Virus record (IMG/VR): IMGVR_UViG_3300034523_000190
Location: 1-38,181 of that record
Source of the DNA: a virus
Length of the DNA: 38,181 nucleotides
Direction: 5' to 3' (one strand)
Part shown: one piece after another, positions 3,709-36,986 of the stretch
Numbering within the stretch: position 1 is the stretch's first letter
Layout: each line of letters starts with the position of its first letter
Notes under the pieces: generated by a model
Databases searched by the model: none
Told to the model about the DNA's origin: nothing
Seen by the model: the letters and a program-made list of their open reading frames with translations, nothing else
Made by a program: the position numbers and the translations under genes

Positions 3709-4822
3709 CAGCGGTTCCAGCGTATAGGATTTCAATGTTGGAACAGTCCGCCCAGCCATGGCGTGGCAAATCCACAGGCACAGACGGTAACTCCAGGACA
3801 GATCGGTAGACGCCCATTACCTGAAGCCTGGCATTGAGCTGTTCAGGCACGATGTCGATGCCGAGTCCGGCGCGCAGCTCTTGGGCATAAACTTCAGCAG
3901 CATTTTTCACTGCGGTAAGTGTCGTGTCCTTGTCGGCCCAGGAGTACAAGGTGATGTGCGATCTGATACGCCATTCGATTTGGTCTGGCATCTGCGCTCG
4001 CACCGTGTCACATAACGGGCGCAGCTTTTCCCCGCTTAAATAGCTTTCGACCTGTTCCAAAAGGTTCGCCGTGGGCATTCCTGTTTCAGTCAGCGGGTGA
4101 ATCGCAACTTCGCCATCTGGCAGGCCATCATCGGGCCCACGCACTGCCACATCGATAATGGACTGGTGAACCGATAGCGCGTGGTACCGATAGGCGCCGC
4201 GACTGCCCGCCGTGGTGTAAGCCTCAGGCGCAAGAATGATGCGCTCTTTGTAGCGATCGTCAGACTCGTCTTCAACGCCATCTGCAGGCACGGTGCTGTT
4301 GCTCGAGGTCAGCCCGGCGAATGGTTGGCCAACCAACGTGTTGATCTGGCCGATAGCCCAACCGTTTCCAATCGTTCCCGCTGTTTCGCAGATAGCGCGC
4401 ACTTGCACTGATAGCGTTCCAGCTTTGATGAAAGCGTCTTGTCGTGTGAGGAAAGCAACTGCCCCGTTTTGGGTGGTGATCCGCGTGCCGGCCGGAATCA
4501 GGCGATCCTGCGACTGAGCCTGCGACGCAACGAACAAGAGGGTGCAGACGGCACCGACCGCCAACAGGCGCGGCGTGCCAACTAGGTCGCCCAGGTAATC
4601 AAGGATTGGGCCACTGCTGAACCGCACCAGGAGCTTCTCCCCGGCACTCTGGATCGCGGCCTTGATGCGTGCCTCTGAATAAGCCACCTGGTTAATGAAG
4701 AGTCGCTCGATCTGGGCAGGGAACAATGACTTGCCTGAGTCTCGCTCGTAGAGAGCAATCAGCTCAGCCTCAATCGCTGCAGGATCAATCTTGACGAACT
4801 CGGGTTTAGGCAGCTCGCGCAT
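3701..4822 (-). CDS. J: Baseplate assembly protein J
   Basis: At 373 residues it matches the length of Baseplate_J (P2 gpJ, Mu gp47) proteins, which form the wedge arms around the hub. The N-terminal part (RLFINQVAYSEARIKAAIQSAGEKLLVRFSSGPILDYLGDLVGTPR) and the later ESDDRYKERIILAPEAYTTAGSRGAYRYHA stretch are diagnostic. It overlaps the gp25 gene by 17 bp and gpI by 8 bp, which suggests coupled translation. Confidence 0.92.
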   Translation of the reverse strand: MRELPKPEFVKIDPAAIEAELIALYERDSGKSLFPAQIERLFINQVAYSEARIKAAIQSAGEKLLVRFSSGPILDYLGDLVGTPRLLAVGAVCTLLFVASQAQSQDRLIPAGTRITTQNGAVAFLTRQDAFIKAGTLSVQVRAICETAGTIGNGWAIGQINTLVGQPFAGLTSSNSTVPADGVEDESDDRYKERIILAPEAYTTAGSRGAYRYHALSVHQSIIDVAVRGPDDGLPDGEVAIHPLTETGMPTANLLEQVESYLSGEKLRPLCDTVRAQMPDQIEWRIRSHITLYSWADKDTTLTAVKNAAEVYAQELRAGLGIDIVPEQLNARLQVMGVYRSVLELPSVPVDLPRHGWADCSNIEILYAGTADG

Positions 4823-5183
4823 AGGGCACCTCAGTCAGTTGAGGAATGCCGTCGGCTACACGCCATTGCACACGTACAGTAATGTGTTCGACATCGATGC
4901 TGACTTGCACCTGGACGATGGAAACGCGGGTTTCCCAGCGGCGAATGGCGTCGACGGCTTCACGCACCAGGTGCGGGGTGACTCGGTTTGTGGGCCAGTC
5001 GATATATAGGTGTAAGTCGCTACCGAACTCAGGCCGGTGGGCATCGCTGCCCTTTGGCGTTGTCAGGATGATGCGGATAGCCTGGTCGATGTCGCGCAGG
5101 CCCTCGACCACCTCGCCGGATGTGCCGAGAGCTGGCTGCCAGTGGGCGGCGGTAATGCTGGTGTAGGGAGTGGGCGTTGTCAT
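4806..5183 (-). CDS. W: Baseplate wedge protein, gpW/gp25 family
   Basis: The 125-residue product contains GLRDIDQAIRIILTTPKGSDAHRPEFGSDLH, the core of the gpW/GP25 lysozyme-like wedge family (T4 gp25, P2 W, Mu gp46). It helps nucleate sheath assembly on the baseplate. It is the first gene after the 5216 late control site. The gap from that site to the ATG is only about 33 bp, shorter than for the other late operons, so the leader must be very short. No strong ribosome site is visible. Confidence 0.9.
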   Translation of the reverse strand: MTTPTPYTSITAAHWQPALGTSGEVVEGLRDIDQAIRIILTTPKGSDAHRPEFGSDLHLYIDWPTNRVTPHLVREAVDAIRRWETRVSIVQVQVSIDVEHITVRVQWRVADGIPQLTEVPYARAA

Positions 5184-5215
5184 GTGCCCATGGTGCGTAA
5201 ACAGATCAGTGCTGG

Positions 5216-5234
5216 CTTTTAATCGAGTTTAAAG
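5216..5234 (-). promoter_or_regulatory. Late-operon control site 1 (fibre/baseplate block)
   Basis: CTTTTAATCGAGTTTAAAG on the plus strand is an imperfect dyad with arms CTTTTAA and TTTAAAG around five bases. It is one of four copies, each just upstream of a minus-strand late gene block. Identity with the 11966 copy extends to 25 bp. It also lies between the two divergent genes at 5183 and 5284. Confidence 0.7.
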
Positions 5235-5283
5235 AGACGCTCAGTGAAGTTTTTACTTAGCTAGTAACCAAAAAGGGACGCCA

Positions 5284-5931
5284 ATGAATAACACATATTT
5301 TCCTCCGGTCTACGAGGCTACGAGCTTTAACTGCCCTCATTGCAGTGCCCTTTCGTCGATGACGTGGGAAGCTCTGAACTCAACCCAATATACGTTGAAA
5401 TTCACCGTGAGAGCCGTTTGCCAAGGGTGTGGTAAATACAGCCTCTGGGTACCTGAAAACGCAGTGGATACGGATCCATTTTCAGAACTATCAATGCATT
5501 ATTCTCTAGCATACCCAAGTGTCTCAACTGCTCCACTCGCCGAGGCAGATATGCCCTCGGAGATAAAAAGAGATTATGACGAAGCAAGGCAAATTTTTAA
5601 TCAGTCACCTCGCGCTGCCGCAGCTTTGCTCAGATTATGCGTGCAGAAGCTATGTCAGAAACTACTACAAAAAGAAGGGAAAATTCATAATCAGATTGGC
5701 GAATTGGTGGACCTTGGCTTTCCGAAACGTGCGTTAGAAGCGTTCGACACCATCCGCATATTTGGAAATGAGTCTGTCCATCCCGGGACTGTAAATCTAA
5801 ATGAAGAACCTGAAGTAGCGCTCTCACTGTTCAAGATTTTGAATATGGCTGTCCGTTACTGCATCACGGAAGAAAAGGAGCTTCAAGCAATCCGTGCGCT
5901 GACGCCGCCAGGAAAGCGCCGAGAGATTTAA
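5284..5931 (+). CDS. Zinc-finger plus DUF4145 protein, accessory (moron) gene
   Basis: A 215-residue protein on the strand opposite to the tail genes around it. Cysteines at 17, 20, 46 and 49 form two CxxC pairs, a likely zinc ribbon. Residues about 105-195 (SPRAAAALLRLCVQKLCQKLL, then FGNESVHPG) match DUF4145, a helical domain known from C-termini of restriction enzymes and from defence-linked proteins. The catalytic role is unknown. The gene is AT-richer than its neighbours, and an AGGGA ribosome site precedes the ATG. Its stop overlaps the gpV stop by a few bases. It separates gpV from gp25, which are normally adjacent. This marks it as a cargo gene, likely expressed in the lysogen; an anti-phage role is inference. 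Confidence 0.75.
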   Translation: MNNTYFPPVYEATSFNCPHCSALSSMTWEALNSTQYTLKFTVRAVCQGCGKYSLWVPENAVDTDPFSELSMHYSLAYPSVSTAPLAEADMPSEIKRDYDEARQIFNQSPRAAAALLRLCVQKLCQKLLQKEGKIHNQIGELVDLGFPKRALEAFDTIRIFGNESVHPGTVNLNEEPEVALSLFKILNMAVRYCITEEKELQAIRALTPPGKRREI

Positions 5932-6461
5932 TGATTATGGTGATTTGAGTTCCCACCCGCGTCAATGATTGAGCCCGTCGCATTGATGTTACCGTTCACC
6001 TGCAGGTCACCATTCAAAGTGACCTGTGGAGTGTCCAATGTTGCTGACGGCGCCTTCACCACGACCGGCTCACCGGCCTCAATGGTGATGTTCCTGCCGC
6101 ACTTCACTAGCAATGCCCCCACACAATCCAGCGTCATGACTCCGGCTGCACGGTCGTAGGTCGAAACCGTCCCGTCACTGAAGCGGACATAATCAGTATC
6201 TTCGTCTACGACTGGCGGCGGCTCAGCAGTCGAGTAGATCCCGCCCAGGTAAACACCGCTCACGCCGTCGGCATCGAGCAGCACCGCGACCTGCTCCCCC
6301 AGTTCGGGCATCAGCGGACGGCGCTGAGTGCCCTGCGTATTGCGCTGGGGCACGTGGAGCCAATAGCTCTCAACTCCATCTCGGTCATCCAGGCGGACCC
6401 TCACGCGGCAGGTTAGGTAGTCCACAGCGCTGATTTCACCGTACTCAAGCTCAATGCCCAT
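5928..6461 (-). CDS. V: Baseplate spike protein V
   Basis: 177 residues. The N-terminal OB-fold part (VDYLTCRVRVRLDD, LMPELGEQVAVLLDADG, GVYLGGIYS) matches P2 gpV and Mu gp45, the membrane-piercing spike. A repetitive beta-helical stretch follows (VVVKAPSATLDTPQVTLNGDLQVNGNINATGSI). The protein ends NSNHHNH, the histidine pattern that coordinates iron at the tip of P2-type spikes. It follows D and is the last gene of the third late block before the accessory insertion. Confidence 0.92.
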   Translation of the reverse strand: MGIELEYGEISAVDYLTCRVRVRLDDRDGVESYWLHVPQRNTQGTQRRPLMPELGEQVAVLLDADGVSGVYLGGIYSTAEPPPVVDEDTDYVRFSDGTVSTYDRAAGVMTLDCVGALLVKCGRNITIEAGEPVVVKAPSATLDTPQVTLNGDLQVNGNINATGSIIDAGGNSNHHNH

Positions 6462-11688: not shown

Positions 11689-11890
11689 TGTCCAGGTCCA
11701 TCAGGTCTTCCACAGTCATGCCGGTCATCTTCGCTACGAGATGATCTTCCATGGCGGCTTCGTCTTTGGAGTTACTCTGGGCGTTACTGAGGTCTTTGCG
11801 TTTGAGACGGGTAATCGGCAGCGAAGTGATCTGCACACCAGCGGCGGACTTGAAAGGGAATTTGAGAGGGATGCTGAGTTTGTCGGCCAC
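11576..11890 (-). CDS. Tail assembly chaperone (E-like)
   Basis: A 104-residue protein, MADKLSIPLKFPFKSAAGVQITSLPITRLKRKDL, of the P2 gpE / Mu gp41 family. These proteins coat the tape measure while the tube grows. It starts with GTG at 11890, supported by GGAG eight bases upstream. It is the first gene after the 11966 control site. Acidic residues crowd its centre and C-terminus. The last third overlaps the E'-like frame in the arrangement expected for a frameshifted pair. Confidence 0.85.
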   Translation of the reverse strand: MADKLSIPLKFPFKSAAGVQITSLPITRLKRKDLSNAQSNSKDEAAMEDHLVAKMTGMTVEDLMDLDIADSKTVSAVFREMVGGGDLAAFLGRSDVAGTEDAAV

Positions 11891-11965
11891 GTTCGTTACT
11901 CCAGGTGATCAAGTGAGCGTTTGCTCTAAGAGAGTCCTGAGTGTCGCGCCTGGCCGTGGCGCTGG

Positions 11966-11984
11966 CTTTTAATCGAGTTTAAAG
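11966..11984 (-). promoter_or_regulatory. Late-operon control site 2 (tail block)
   Basis: Exact copy of the 19-bp dyad CTTTTAATCGAGTTTAAAG, 76 bp upstream of the chaperone GTG. It begins three bases beyond the hairpin that ends the tube operon, so termination and re-initiation are packed into about 50 bp. Confidence 0.75.
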
Positions 11985-11986
11985 AA

Positions 11987-12012
11987 GAAGCCCCGCACAA
12001 TGGCGGGGCTTC
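11987..12012 (-). terminator. Strong intrinsic terminator after the tail tube gene
   Basis: GAAGCCCCGC and GCGGGGCTTC make a 10-bp perfect stem with a 6-base loop. On the minus strand it is followed by TTCTTT; on the plus strand by CGTTTTT, so it may stop transcription from both sides. Confidence 0.8.
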
Positions 12013-12061
12013 GTTTTTGCCGTCCTGGCGGCTCCGATCCGTCGGAGCTATCCTACCGGCC

Positions 12062-12586
12062 TTATGCCTGACCGATGTTCTTACGGTACTTGGACAACTG
12101 ATCCTCACCGCCCACGCGGAAGATATTGGAGAGATAGTCCAACAGCACGATTTCCTCACCGTTCAGCAGCTGGCGAACGTACGTGGCCGAGAACGGTGTC
12201 TCAAACTTGCTCGGGTCACGTGGTTTGTAGCTGCCCAGGGCGTATTCCTTGAAGGTCACCGTCATCAAGGTGACCAGCGGGATTTCATCCGCCAGGCCAG
12301 CGCTATTGAACACCTGGACGTTCGAACGGCACTGCAGCTGAACACTTTTAAACGGCGTGGCCAGCTTCTTTGCCGCGTCATAGTAAAGGCTGTTCCAAAC
12401 GATTTTCCCTTCCAGTTTGTCGATGCCGTCGGGCAATTCAATCAGGCCGACCAGACCCAGTCCCTGGAAGTCAGACATCACGGACTTGATCGTACCTAGC
12501 TCGATCTCCTCACAACGAGCGAAGAAGCTGTTGCCGTCCAGGTACACGTTCGCGTTAGCGATCCGGTGCGCGCTTAAACCAGCCAT
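12062..12586 (-). CDS. Tail tube protein (FII family)
   Basis: The 174-residue product (MAGLSAHRIANANVYLDGNSFFARCEEIELGTIKSVMSDFQGLGLVG) matches the P2 FII tail tube family, which stacks as hexamers inside the sheath. It follows the sheath gene with no gap and is followed by a strong terminator, so it is the last gene of its transcript. Confidence 0.93.
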   Translation of the reverse strand: MAGLSAHRIANANVYLDGNSFFARCEEIELGTIKSVMSDFQGLGLVGLIELPDGIDKLEGKIVWNSLYYDAAKKLATPFKSVQLQCRSNVQVFNSAGLADEIPLVTLMTVTFKEYALGSYKPRDPSKFETPFSATYVRQLLNGEEIVLLDYLSNIFRVGGEDQLSKYRKNIGQA

Positions 12587-17909: not shown

Positions 17910-17968
17910 GGGTTGCGCGCTTCGATTGAAGGTGATGCGCACAGCCTGGGCCAATGAATGGCCCATGA

Positions 17969-17987
17969 CTTTTAATCGAGTTTAAAG
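17969..17987 (-). promoter_or_regulatory. Late-operon control site 3 (capsid/tail block)
   Basis: Exact copy of the 19-bp dyad CTTTTAATCGAGTTTAAAG, 60 bp upstream of the preferred protease start. With an activator centred about 40 bp before the transcript start, as at Mu middle promoters, the leader would be about 25 nt. Confidence 0.75.
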
Positions 17988-25523: not shown

Positions 25524-25542
25524 CTTTTAATCGGGTTTAAAG
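25524..25542 (-). promoter_or_regulatory. Late-operon control site 4 (lysis/packaging block)
   Basis: CTTTTAATCGGGTTTAAAG, one base different from the other three copies and in the same orientation. It is 84 bp upstream of the endolysin ATG. Confidence 0.7.
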
Positions 25543-36172: not shown

Positions 36173-36633
36173 AAGCCGCGCCGTCCAACCCAAACCGCCT
36201 GCGCTTGATCAAGCTGATCCATGTCGCCCGACGTGAGCTACGCATGGAAGATGACACCTATCGCCTGATGCTGGCTGGCATGACGGGTTTGGAAGGCGCA
36301 ACGTCGACTGCTGATCTGAGCGTTCCAAACCTGGTCAGGGTTTTGGAACAGCTCAAACTGAAGGGCTTCAAGGTTCGTCCAAACAAAGAGCAGAAGCGGC
36401 CGTTGGCCGATGACGTCCAATCGAAGAAGATCCGCTCACTGTGGTTGGAACTGCACGGCCTGGGTGCGGTGCGTGATCCTTCCGAGGTGGCCCTGGCCAA
36501 GTTCGTAAAGAGCATGACCCGCGTCTCAGCGCTCCAATGGCTCAGCACCGCCCAGGCTAGCCGCGTCATCGAAAACCTCAAGCAATGGCAGCAACGGGTG
36601 GCGACTAAGTTGCAGCAACCGGAGGTACTATGA
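36169..36633 (+). CDS. gemA: GemA-family regulatory protein (Mu gp16, DUF1018)
   Basis: 154 residues starting with GTG. NRLRLIKLIHVARRELRMEDDTYRLMLAGMTGLEGATSTADLSVPNLVRVLEQLKLKGF and the later KKIRSLWLELHGLGAVRDPSEVALAKFVKSMTRV are diagnostic of GemA. In Mu it alters host gene expression and DNA supercoiling. It lies just before mor, as in Mu. Confidence 0.93.
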   Translation: MKAAPSNPNRLRLIKLIHVARRELRMEDDTYRLMLAGMTGLEGATSTADLSVPNLVRVLEQLKLKGFKVRPNKEQKRPLADDVQSKKIRSLWLELHGLGAVRDPSEVALAKFVKSMTRVSALQWLSTAQASRVIENLKQWQQRVATKLQQPEVL

Positions 36634-36986
36634 ACTACTCACGTAACCGAGCGCCCGAACTGCTGGCGGATGTGGCTGAGTTCATTAGCTTGACTCTCAG
36701 CGAGCTGGTCTCAATGGAGCCAAGCAAAGCCCAGCACGTAGGCAAAGAGGTTGCTGGCCGACTCGGCGCTTACTGGGGTGGGCAGAACCTTTATTTCCCG
36801 AAAGGGCTATCGGTCAAGTTGGGCGAGAGAGACCGTCAGATTTACGCTGACTTCACTGGTGCCAACCACCATGAGTTGGCTCGGAAGTACGACATAACGC
36901 TGCCGTGGGTTTACCAAATCGTGAAGGCTGCTCGTAAAGAGGAAATCTCACGTCGTCAGGGGGATATGTTTCTCACAGATCACTAA
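36630..36986 (+). CDS. mor: Mor-family transcription activator
   Basis: 118 residues with the Mor/C layout. The dimerisation part is FISLTLSELVSMEPSKAQHVGKEVAGRLGAYWGGQNLYFPKG. The DNA-binding HTH is RDRQIYADFTGANHHELARKYDITLPWVYQIVKAARKE. Mor and C bind imperfect dyads just upstream of weak -35 regions and recruit RNA polymerase. Only one member of the family is present, so it probably acts directly on the four late sites. It is the last early gene and is followed by a terminator. Confidence 0.93.
   Translation: MNYSRNRAPELLADVAEFISLTLSELVSMEPSKAQHVGKEVAGRLGAYWGGQNLYFPKGLSVKLGERDRQIYADFTGANHHELARKYDITLPWVYQIVKAARKEEISRRQGDMFLTDH

Follow-up and report, generated by a model that had tools for sequence, protein, structure and literature searches.

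A predicted anti-phage gene of the PD-T7-4 family in a variable slot between gpV and gp25 of a Mu-like Pseudomonas phage

Results

The gpV-gp25 locus and its cargo gene

The window, i.e. the whole stretch of 38,181 nucleotides that was analysed (IMG/VR record IMGVR_UViG_3300034523_000190), encodes a Mu portal, a Mor-family activator, GemA and an rve-domain integrase-core (transposase-like) protein. Judged from these genes, it is a Mu-like transposable prophage or phage of Pseudomonas, and Pseudomonas genomes harbour prophages related to it. The features considered here are the following.

4806-5183, minus strand: baseplate wedge gene of the gp25 type, with which the late operon downstream of the site begins (Pfam GPW_gp25, 4.9e-13)
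5190-5195, minus strand: -10-like element, CACCAT in the window (CATNAT consensus at -12 to -7)
5216-5234, minus strand: late-control site of the gp25 operon (CTTTAAACTCGATTAAAAG on the minus strand), -51 to -33 from the gp25 ATG
5284-5931, plus strand: cargo (moron) gene with an ATG start, encoding a 215-aa zinc-ribbon and DUF4145 (HEPN-superfamily) protein of the PD-T7-4 family
5332-5430, plus strand: zinc-ribbon cysteines C17/C20 and C46/C49 in the fast-evolving N-terminal domain, invariant in 28 homologues
5557-5901, plus strand: all-helical DUF4145/HEPN-type domain, residues 92-206
5755-5781, plus strand: R158-x7-H166 motif (RIFGNESVH), candidate RNase active site, located where the helix that precedes the last long one ends
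5928-5931, both strands: TTAA sequence common to the stops of the cargo gene (plus, 5929-5931) and gpV (minus, 5928-5930)
5928-6461, minus strand: baseplate/spike gene of the gpV type, with which the upstream late operon ends (Pfam Phage_base_V, 2.6e-6)
11966-11984, minus strand: second late-control site, which marks the other cargo hotspot (junction of tube FII and the next tail gene) in relatives
17969-17987, minus strand: third late-control site, ahead of a protease/scaffold gene that resembles I of Mu
25524-25542, minus strand: fourth late-control site (1 mismatch), upstream of an endolysin-like gene
36630-36986, plus strand: Mor-family transcription activator (match 3.4e-36)

The initial annotation had described an AT-rich plus-strand gene that splits gpV from gp25 and whose stop overlaps that of gpV, which is borne out by the open reading frame at 5284-5931, located between the two minus-strand genes, by the shared TTAA and by a GC content of 0.45-0.48 in the region of the gene and of about 0.6 in both flanks. 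The longest open stretch at this position (227) exceeds the maximum found in 500 block-shuffles of the region (186), and homologues of the protein are conserved with 54-78% identity. With its differing composition and its location between genes that lie next to each other in 17 of 70 relatives (gap of at most 101 bp), the gene matches the description of a moron in these two respects. The accompanying statement that gpV and gp25 are normally adjacent applies to these 17 close relatives only, whereas most of the 70 carry something at this junction.

A PD-T7-4-family protein with a zinc ribbon and a DUF4145/HEPN-type domain

The PADLOC model of PD-T7-4 (PDLC04109) matches the cargo protein over its full length (4e-62, residues 4-215 to profile positions 3-203 of 211). 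PD-T7-4, which is directed against T7, emerged from experiments in E. coli that selected for resistance to phages, and it frequently overlaps the gene of an integrase (Vassallo et al. 2022, PMC9519451). The idea that the gene is a horizontally variable cargo with an anti-phage role, which had been derived from the association of DUF4145 with defence proteins, gains a stronger basis in this match, and an anti-phage function of the gene at 5284-5931, as predicted from its sequence, is very probable, although PADLOC assignment and homology fall short of proving activity against Pseudomonas phages. A prophage gene without annotation is hereby placed in a concrete defence family. It represents an added member of this known family, in a slot, the gpV-gp25 junction, that our literature search did not find described as a cargo slot.

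Both annotated domains were recovered. Pfam DUF4145 (PF13643) matches residues 100-172 with an E-value of 6e-15 and a score of 55.5 bits versus a gathering score of 23.1 bits, and the zinc finger corresponds to a zinc ribbon with the invariant cysteines C17, C20, C46 and C49. DUF4145 belongs to the HEPN superfamily, for which fusions to zinc ribbons as well as occurrence in dsDNA viruses have been noted (PMC3710099). In an AlphaFold model (pLDDT 85) the N-terminal half is beta-rich and the C-terminal half all-helical (helices 92-105, 109-128, 134-143, 148-165 and 176-206), with the motif at residues 158-166 terminating helix 148-165, which agrees with the HEPN description of an all-helical domain with its motif at the end of helix 3. 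A Foldseek comparison of the model with the PDB gave no significant match; the best sensible one was 2q00 (prob 0.77, TMt 0.56, E 0.76), which is listed as HEPN (PMC3710099), and RnlA scored lower. By sequence, PDB entry 9y9c ("DUF4145 domain-containing protein") is a full-length homologue (E 2e-38 with the single sequence, 3.6e-65 with the profile). A literature search found no paper on this entry, and the retron-Kva2 preprint (PMC13405049) was rejected as its source, since the structure reported there is 36HT, a 19-kDa HEPN protein.

All 28 homologues, including those with identities as low as about 32%, retain R158, N162 and H166. Their spacing, R-x7-H, lies one residue beyond the published HEPN motif Rx4-6H, which is conserved in about 80% of DUF4145 (PMC3710099); this lowers the claim of RNase activity, but not the membership in PF13643, which rests on the profile. 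It is possible, if rather unlikely, that DUF4145 is not a nuclease here and that the protein forms a large oligomer which blocks infecting phages through binding to RNA, to DNA or to one of their proteins. Such a role would be in line with the non-canonical spacing, since HEPN domains without the motif are thought only to bind (PMC3710099), and with the 24 identical chains contained in 9y9c. However, the invariance of the three residues fits catalysis, and active HEPN RNases without a canonical motif exist, as the non-canonical site H64/R122 of the retron-Kva2 HEPN protein illustrates (preprint, PMC13405049).

Cargo accumulates at two late-operon boundaries of the tail module

The gap between gpV and gp25 measures at least 200 bp in 53 of 70 relatives, and the gap between tube FII and the next tail gene (E) in 35 of 40, whereas the junctions FI-FII, D-V, gp25-J, J-I and X-D reach this size in none of the relatives. 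Among the junctions examined, the two hotspots of the tail module are those that bear a late-control site. At the second one, the site keeps a near-constant distance from the downstream gene, mostly -95 or about -84; the largest cluster of ORFs found there (window 11890-12062; loci L020-L099) comprises 20 members, of which the tested one is without a Pfam match.

The ORFs between gpV and gp25 fall into about 20 unrelated clusters. The commonest cargo is DUF4145, present in 19 of 70 intervals (17 of 63 non-redundant ones), and others encode a DUF6338 protein, an acyltransferase and PAAR proteins. The latter two types indicate that the slot is not specific to defence. In three loci (L073, L083 and L097) the PAAR gene has the orientation of gpV, and its product is likely to be a spike tip rather than lysogenic cargo. 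Most cargo families at the two slots have no match in PADLOC or Pfam, which makes these boundaries, both at late promoters of Mu-like Pseudomonas phages, a place to look for accessory and defence genes that are still uncharacterised.

Cargo ORFs of at least 100 aa are antisense to the late operons in 55 of 59 cases (4 sense); since the count includes related sequences, which are not independent, a binomial p gives no more than a rough indication here. An intrinsic terminator within 60 nt before gp25 was detected in 7 of 17 cargo-less versus 1 of 53 cargo-bearing intervals (loci L020-L099; Fisher p about 1e-4, uncorrected for relatedness).

Nearly all close homologues of the cargo gene are located between gpV and gp25. 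Among the exceptions are a copy in the vicinity of an integrase (L019) and a homologue in Pseudomonas bananamidigenes (L215) that adjoins a bSEFIR defence gene; in the latter (L215:1448-4336), the bSEFIR-type gene (PADLOC 1.2e-43) lies upstream of the DUF4145 gene. Distant homologues were found in a Streptococcus prophage, within its lysogeny module and close to both an integrase and a gene for abortive infection, as well as in a filamentous Vibrio phage, where the depositors annotated the gene as PD-T7-4. Across 299 Pseudomonas genomes, 12 carry a relative at E <=1e-20, one of which is of the close type.

This distribution bears on the idea that the product of the moron tunes the regulation of its own phage, for instance late transcription at the neighbouring control site through binding of DNA or RNA, instead of serving in defence. 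The zinc ribbon, the annotation of PHROG 1305 as "DNA binding protein" and the position of the gene directly divergent from the site would be compatible with such a function, but we regard it as improbable: the 17 relatives without cargo, together with the unrelated genes that otherwise fill the slot, argue against a conserved regulatory role, and homologues are found in the unrelated contexts of P. bananamidigenes, the L019 integrase, Streptococcus prophages and the filamentous Vibrio phage.

Two halves of the protein evolve at different rates

The alignment contains 16 alleles of the same type as the window protein, which shares with them 29-66% identity over residues 1-90 and 73-87% over residues 91-215. 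In the pairs for which rates were measurable, dN of the N-terminal half was several-fold above that of the HEPN half at comparable dS (0.31 vs 0.05 and 0.15 vs 0.02). The dN of the HEPN half, 0.02-0.09 in measurable pairs, indicates strong purifying selection. Recombination homogenising the C-terminal half was rejected as an explanation, as synonymous divergence is comparable in both halves. The pattern fits a fast-changing putative recognition half joined to a constrained putative effector half, and the natural series of PD-T7-4 alleles, with its conserved effector and diverse zinc ribbon, is well suited to the search for triggers.

Two tandem DUF4145/PD-T7-4 paralogues of about 40% identity are present between gpV and gp25 in L001, L014, L015, L045, L050, L053, L063, L075, L081, L214 and L216. 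These paralogues, as well as other relatives, also match PD-T7-4 in PADLOC. By analogy with HEPN proteins that act as dimers, the two might pair.

The AT-richness of the gene and its variability among related phages could be taken as signs of a spurious or decaying foreign ORF without function, which is highly improbable given that the frame is intact in 28 homologues, that dN in the HEPN half is low and that tandem copies are intact as well.

The late-control site precedes the cargo in evolution

A 19-bp site (CTTTTAATCGAGTTTAAAG) occurs at 5216, 11966, 17969 and, with one mismatch, at 25524, while none is expected from shuffles. The statement that the copy flanking the cargo gene shares an extended 25-bp identity with the one at 11966 proved exact (5211-5235 and 11961-11985); the shared string is the late-promoter element with its immediate flank, present at two operon starts. 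The repetition of the site before each late operon and the encoded Mor/C-family activator correspond to the features of Mu C/Mor-type late promoters, and the Mor-family protein (36630-36986) is the likely actor at these sites, as predicted from its sequence. In Mu, C activates the late promoters lys, I, P and mom (PMC4461284). A P2 Ogr-type late site was rejected as an alternative, since this is a Mu-like phage that encodes a Mor activator and since the sequences matching TGT-N12-ACA exactly do not coincide with the four sites.

Two blocks are conserved upstream of gp25 in 74 distinct regions, namely the site (-52 to -32) and CATNAT (-12 to -7), which is followed by GGGCGC. At gp25 of the window (5184-5195, minus strand), CATNAT ends 7 nt before the ATG and the site is centred at -42; no Shine-Dalgarno-like sequence was found in the conserved block. 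From the short distance and the lack of a Shine-Dalgarno-like sequence, the late mRNA of gp25 is predicted to have a very short leader or none. At 17964-17987 the site ends 3 bp ahead of the listed ATG of the I-like gene, whose true start codon is for this reason probably located further downstream.

The initial annotation had suggested that the site came with the insertion and restored expression of the downstream baseplate genes. For comparison, 80 IMG/VR loci (L020-L099) were fetched by the gp25 protein, a query that is blind to the cargo. The site starts at -51 or -52 from gp25 in every locus with upstream sequence, over gpV-gp25 gaps of 56 to 1,801 bp. All 17 loci without cargo (gaps of 56-101 bp) have kept it between gpV and gp25, and three of them (L025, L044 and L052) contain the full 25-bp string. 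The exact 25-bp identity to the copy at 11966, which had spoken for an import with the cargo, is therefore found without the gene too. The import is thus refuted, by the very observation that the initial annotation had named as speaking against it. Since the site has a fixed position in cargo-less relatives, it did not arrive with the cargo gene; as judged from these loci, it is an ancestral part of the gp25 operon and belongs to the tail genes of the phage.

Expression of the cargo gene

In the window copy, the 49 bp that separate the late-control site from the cargo ATG contain no clear sigma-70 promoter, and a search for a consensus terminator of the gene found none. Several relatives (9 of 50; at most 6 in shuffles) have a -10-like hexamer whose first base is position 31 from the start of the site, an arrangement that would put the -35 region inside the site; this hexamer is absent from the window copy. 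A mirror-image use of the late-control site for late expression of the cargo was rejected, as there is no shared -10-like element at the mirrored positions 40-45.

Discussion

A probable function in lysogenic defence

Taken together, the gene at 5284-5931 is probably an anti-phage moron that encodes an HEPN RNase and is expressed in lysogeny, beside the ancestral late promoter of gp25. According to this model, the cargo protein would be produced during lysogeny, when the late genes are silent, its divergent zinc-ribbon half would recognise a product of the infecting phage or bind nucleic acid, and the DUF4145/HEPN half would then cleave RNA in a metal-independent manner via R158 and H166, by which the infection would be stopped. 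With less confidence, we propose that strong late transcription from the opposite strand lowers the expression of the cargo upon induction and spares the phage, and that the Mor-type activator bound to the divergent late-control site may reduce it as well.

A tentative extension, which we consider doubtful, is that the site acts as a two-way switch: the cargo promoter would be on in the lysogen, and upon induction the Mor-type activator bound to the site would both fire the tail operon and block the defence gene. The -35 element of the divergent cargo promoter would overlap the site in several relatives, and late transcription reading through the junction, where a terminator is mostly absent when cargo is present, would silence the cargo from the other strand. 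The antisense orientation of the cargo, the usual absence of the terminator and the hexamer at position 31 in relatives suggest that induction could switch the cargo off; our confidence is held low because the window copy is without the hexamer and shows no clear promoter. If true, such a switch would let Mu-like phages carry toxic HEPN defence genes without self-attack, and it would explain why cargo is found at both site-bearing tail junctions and is nearly always antisense.

Comparison with known systems

The predicted defence gene resembles PD-T7-4 (PMC9519451) in its full-length profile match, in being a single gene carried on mobile elements and in the combination of a zinc-finger-like N-terminus with a domain of an RNase superfamily. 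It differs in that it sits between gpV and gp25, on the strand opposite to the late operons of a Mu-like phage, and in the two tandem paralogues that are sometimes present in relatives. With the DUF4145/HEPN superfamily (PF13643; PMC3710099) the protein shares the all-helical domain, the invariant Arg and His at a helix end and the fusion to a zinc ribbon, but its R-x7-H spacing departs from the general Rx4-6H.

Like the C-activated late promoters of Mu (PMC4461284), the four sites are accompanied by a Mor-family activator, and two of them lie upstream of lys-like and I-like genes; the sequence of the site is different here, and binding by the activator is an inference. A further parallel is provided by Tha and Ith of Staphylococcus prophages, where Tha is an HEPN anti-phage protein and an antisense arrangement separates lysogenic immunity from lytic growth (PMC11087260). 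Both cases involve a prophage protein of the HEPN type in an antisense context. Tha, however, has a canonical R-x4-H motif, lies in the cI operon and is not shown to be a DUF4145 protein, and no counterpart of Ith, the antisense-encoded inhibitor, was seen at the locus described here.

Finally, the gpV-gp25 slot is comparable to the hotspots of P2 (tin/old, fun) and to the plasticity regions of P. aeruginosa Mu-like phages (PMC9519451, PMC4378225), in which variable accessory genes likewise occupy fixed junctions of temperate phages, and is distinguished from them by its position at a late-operon boundary inside the contractile-tail module of a Mu-type phage.
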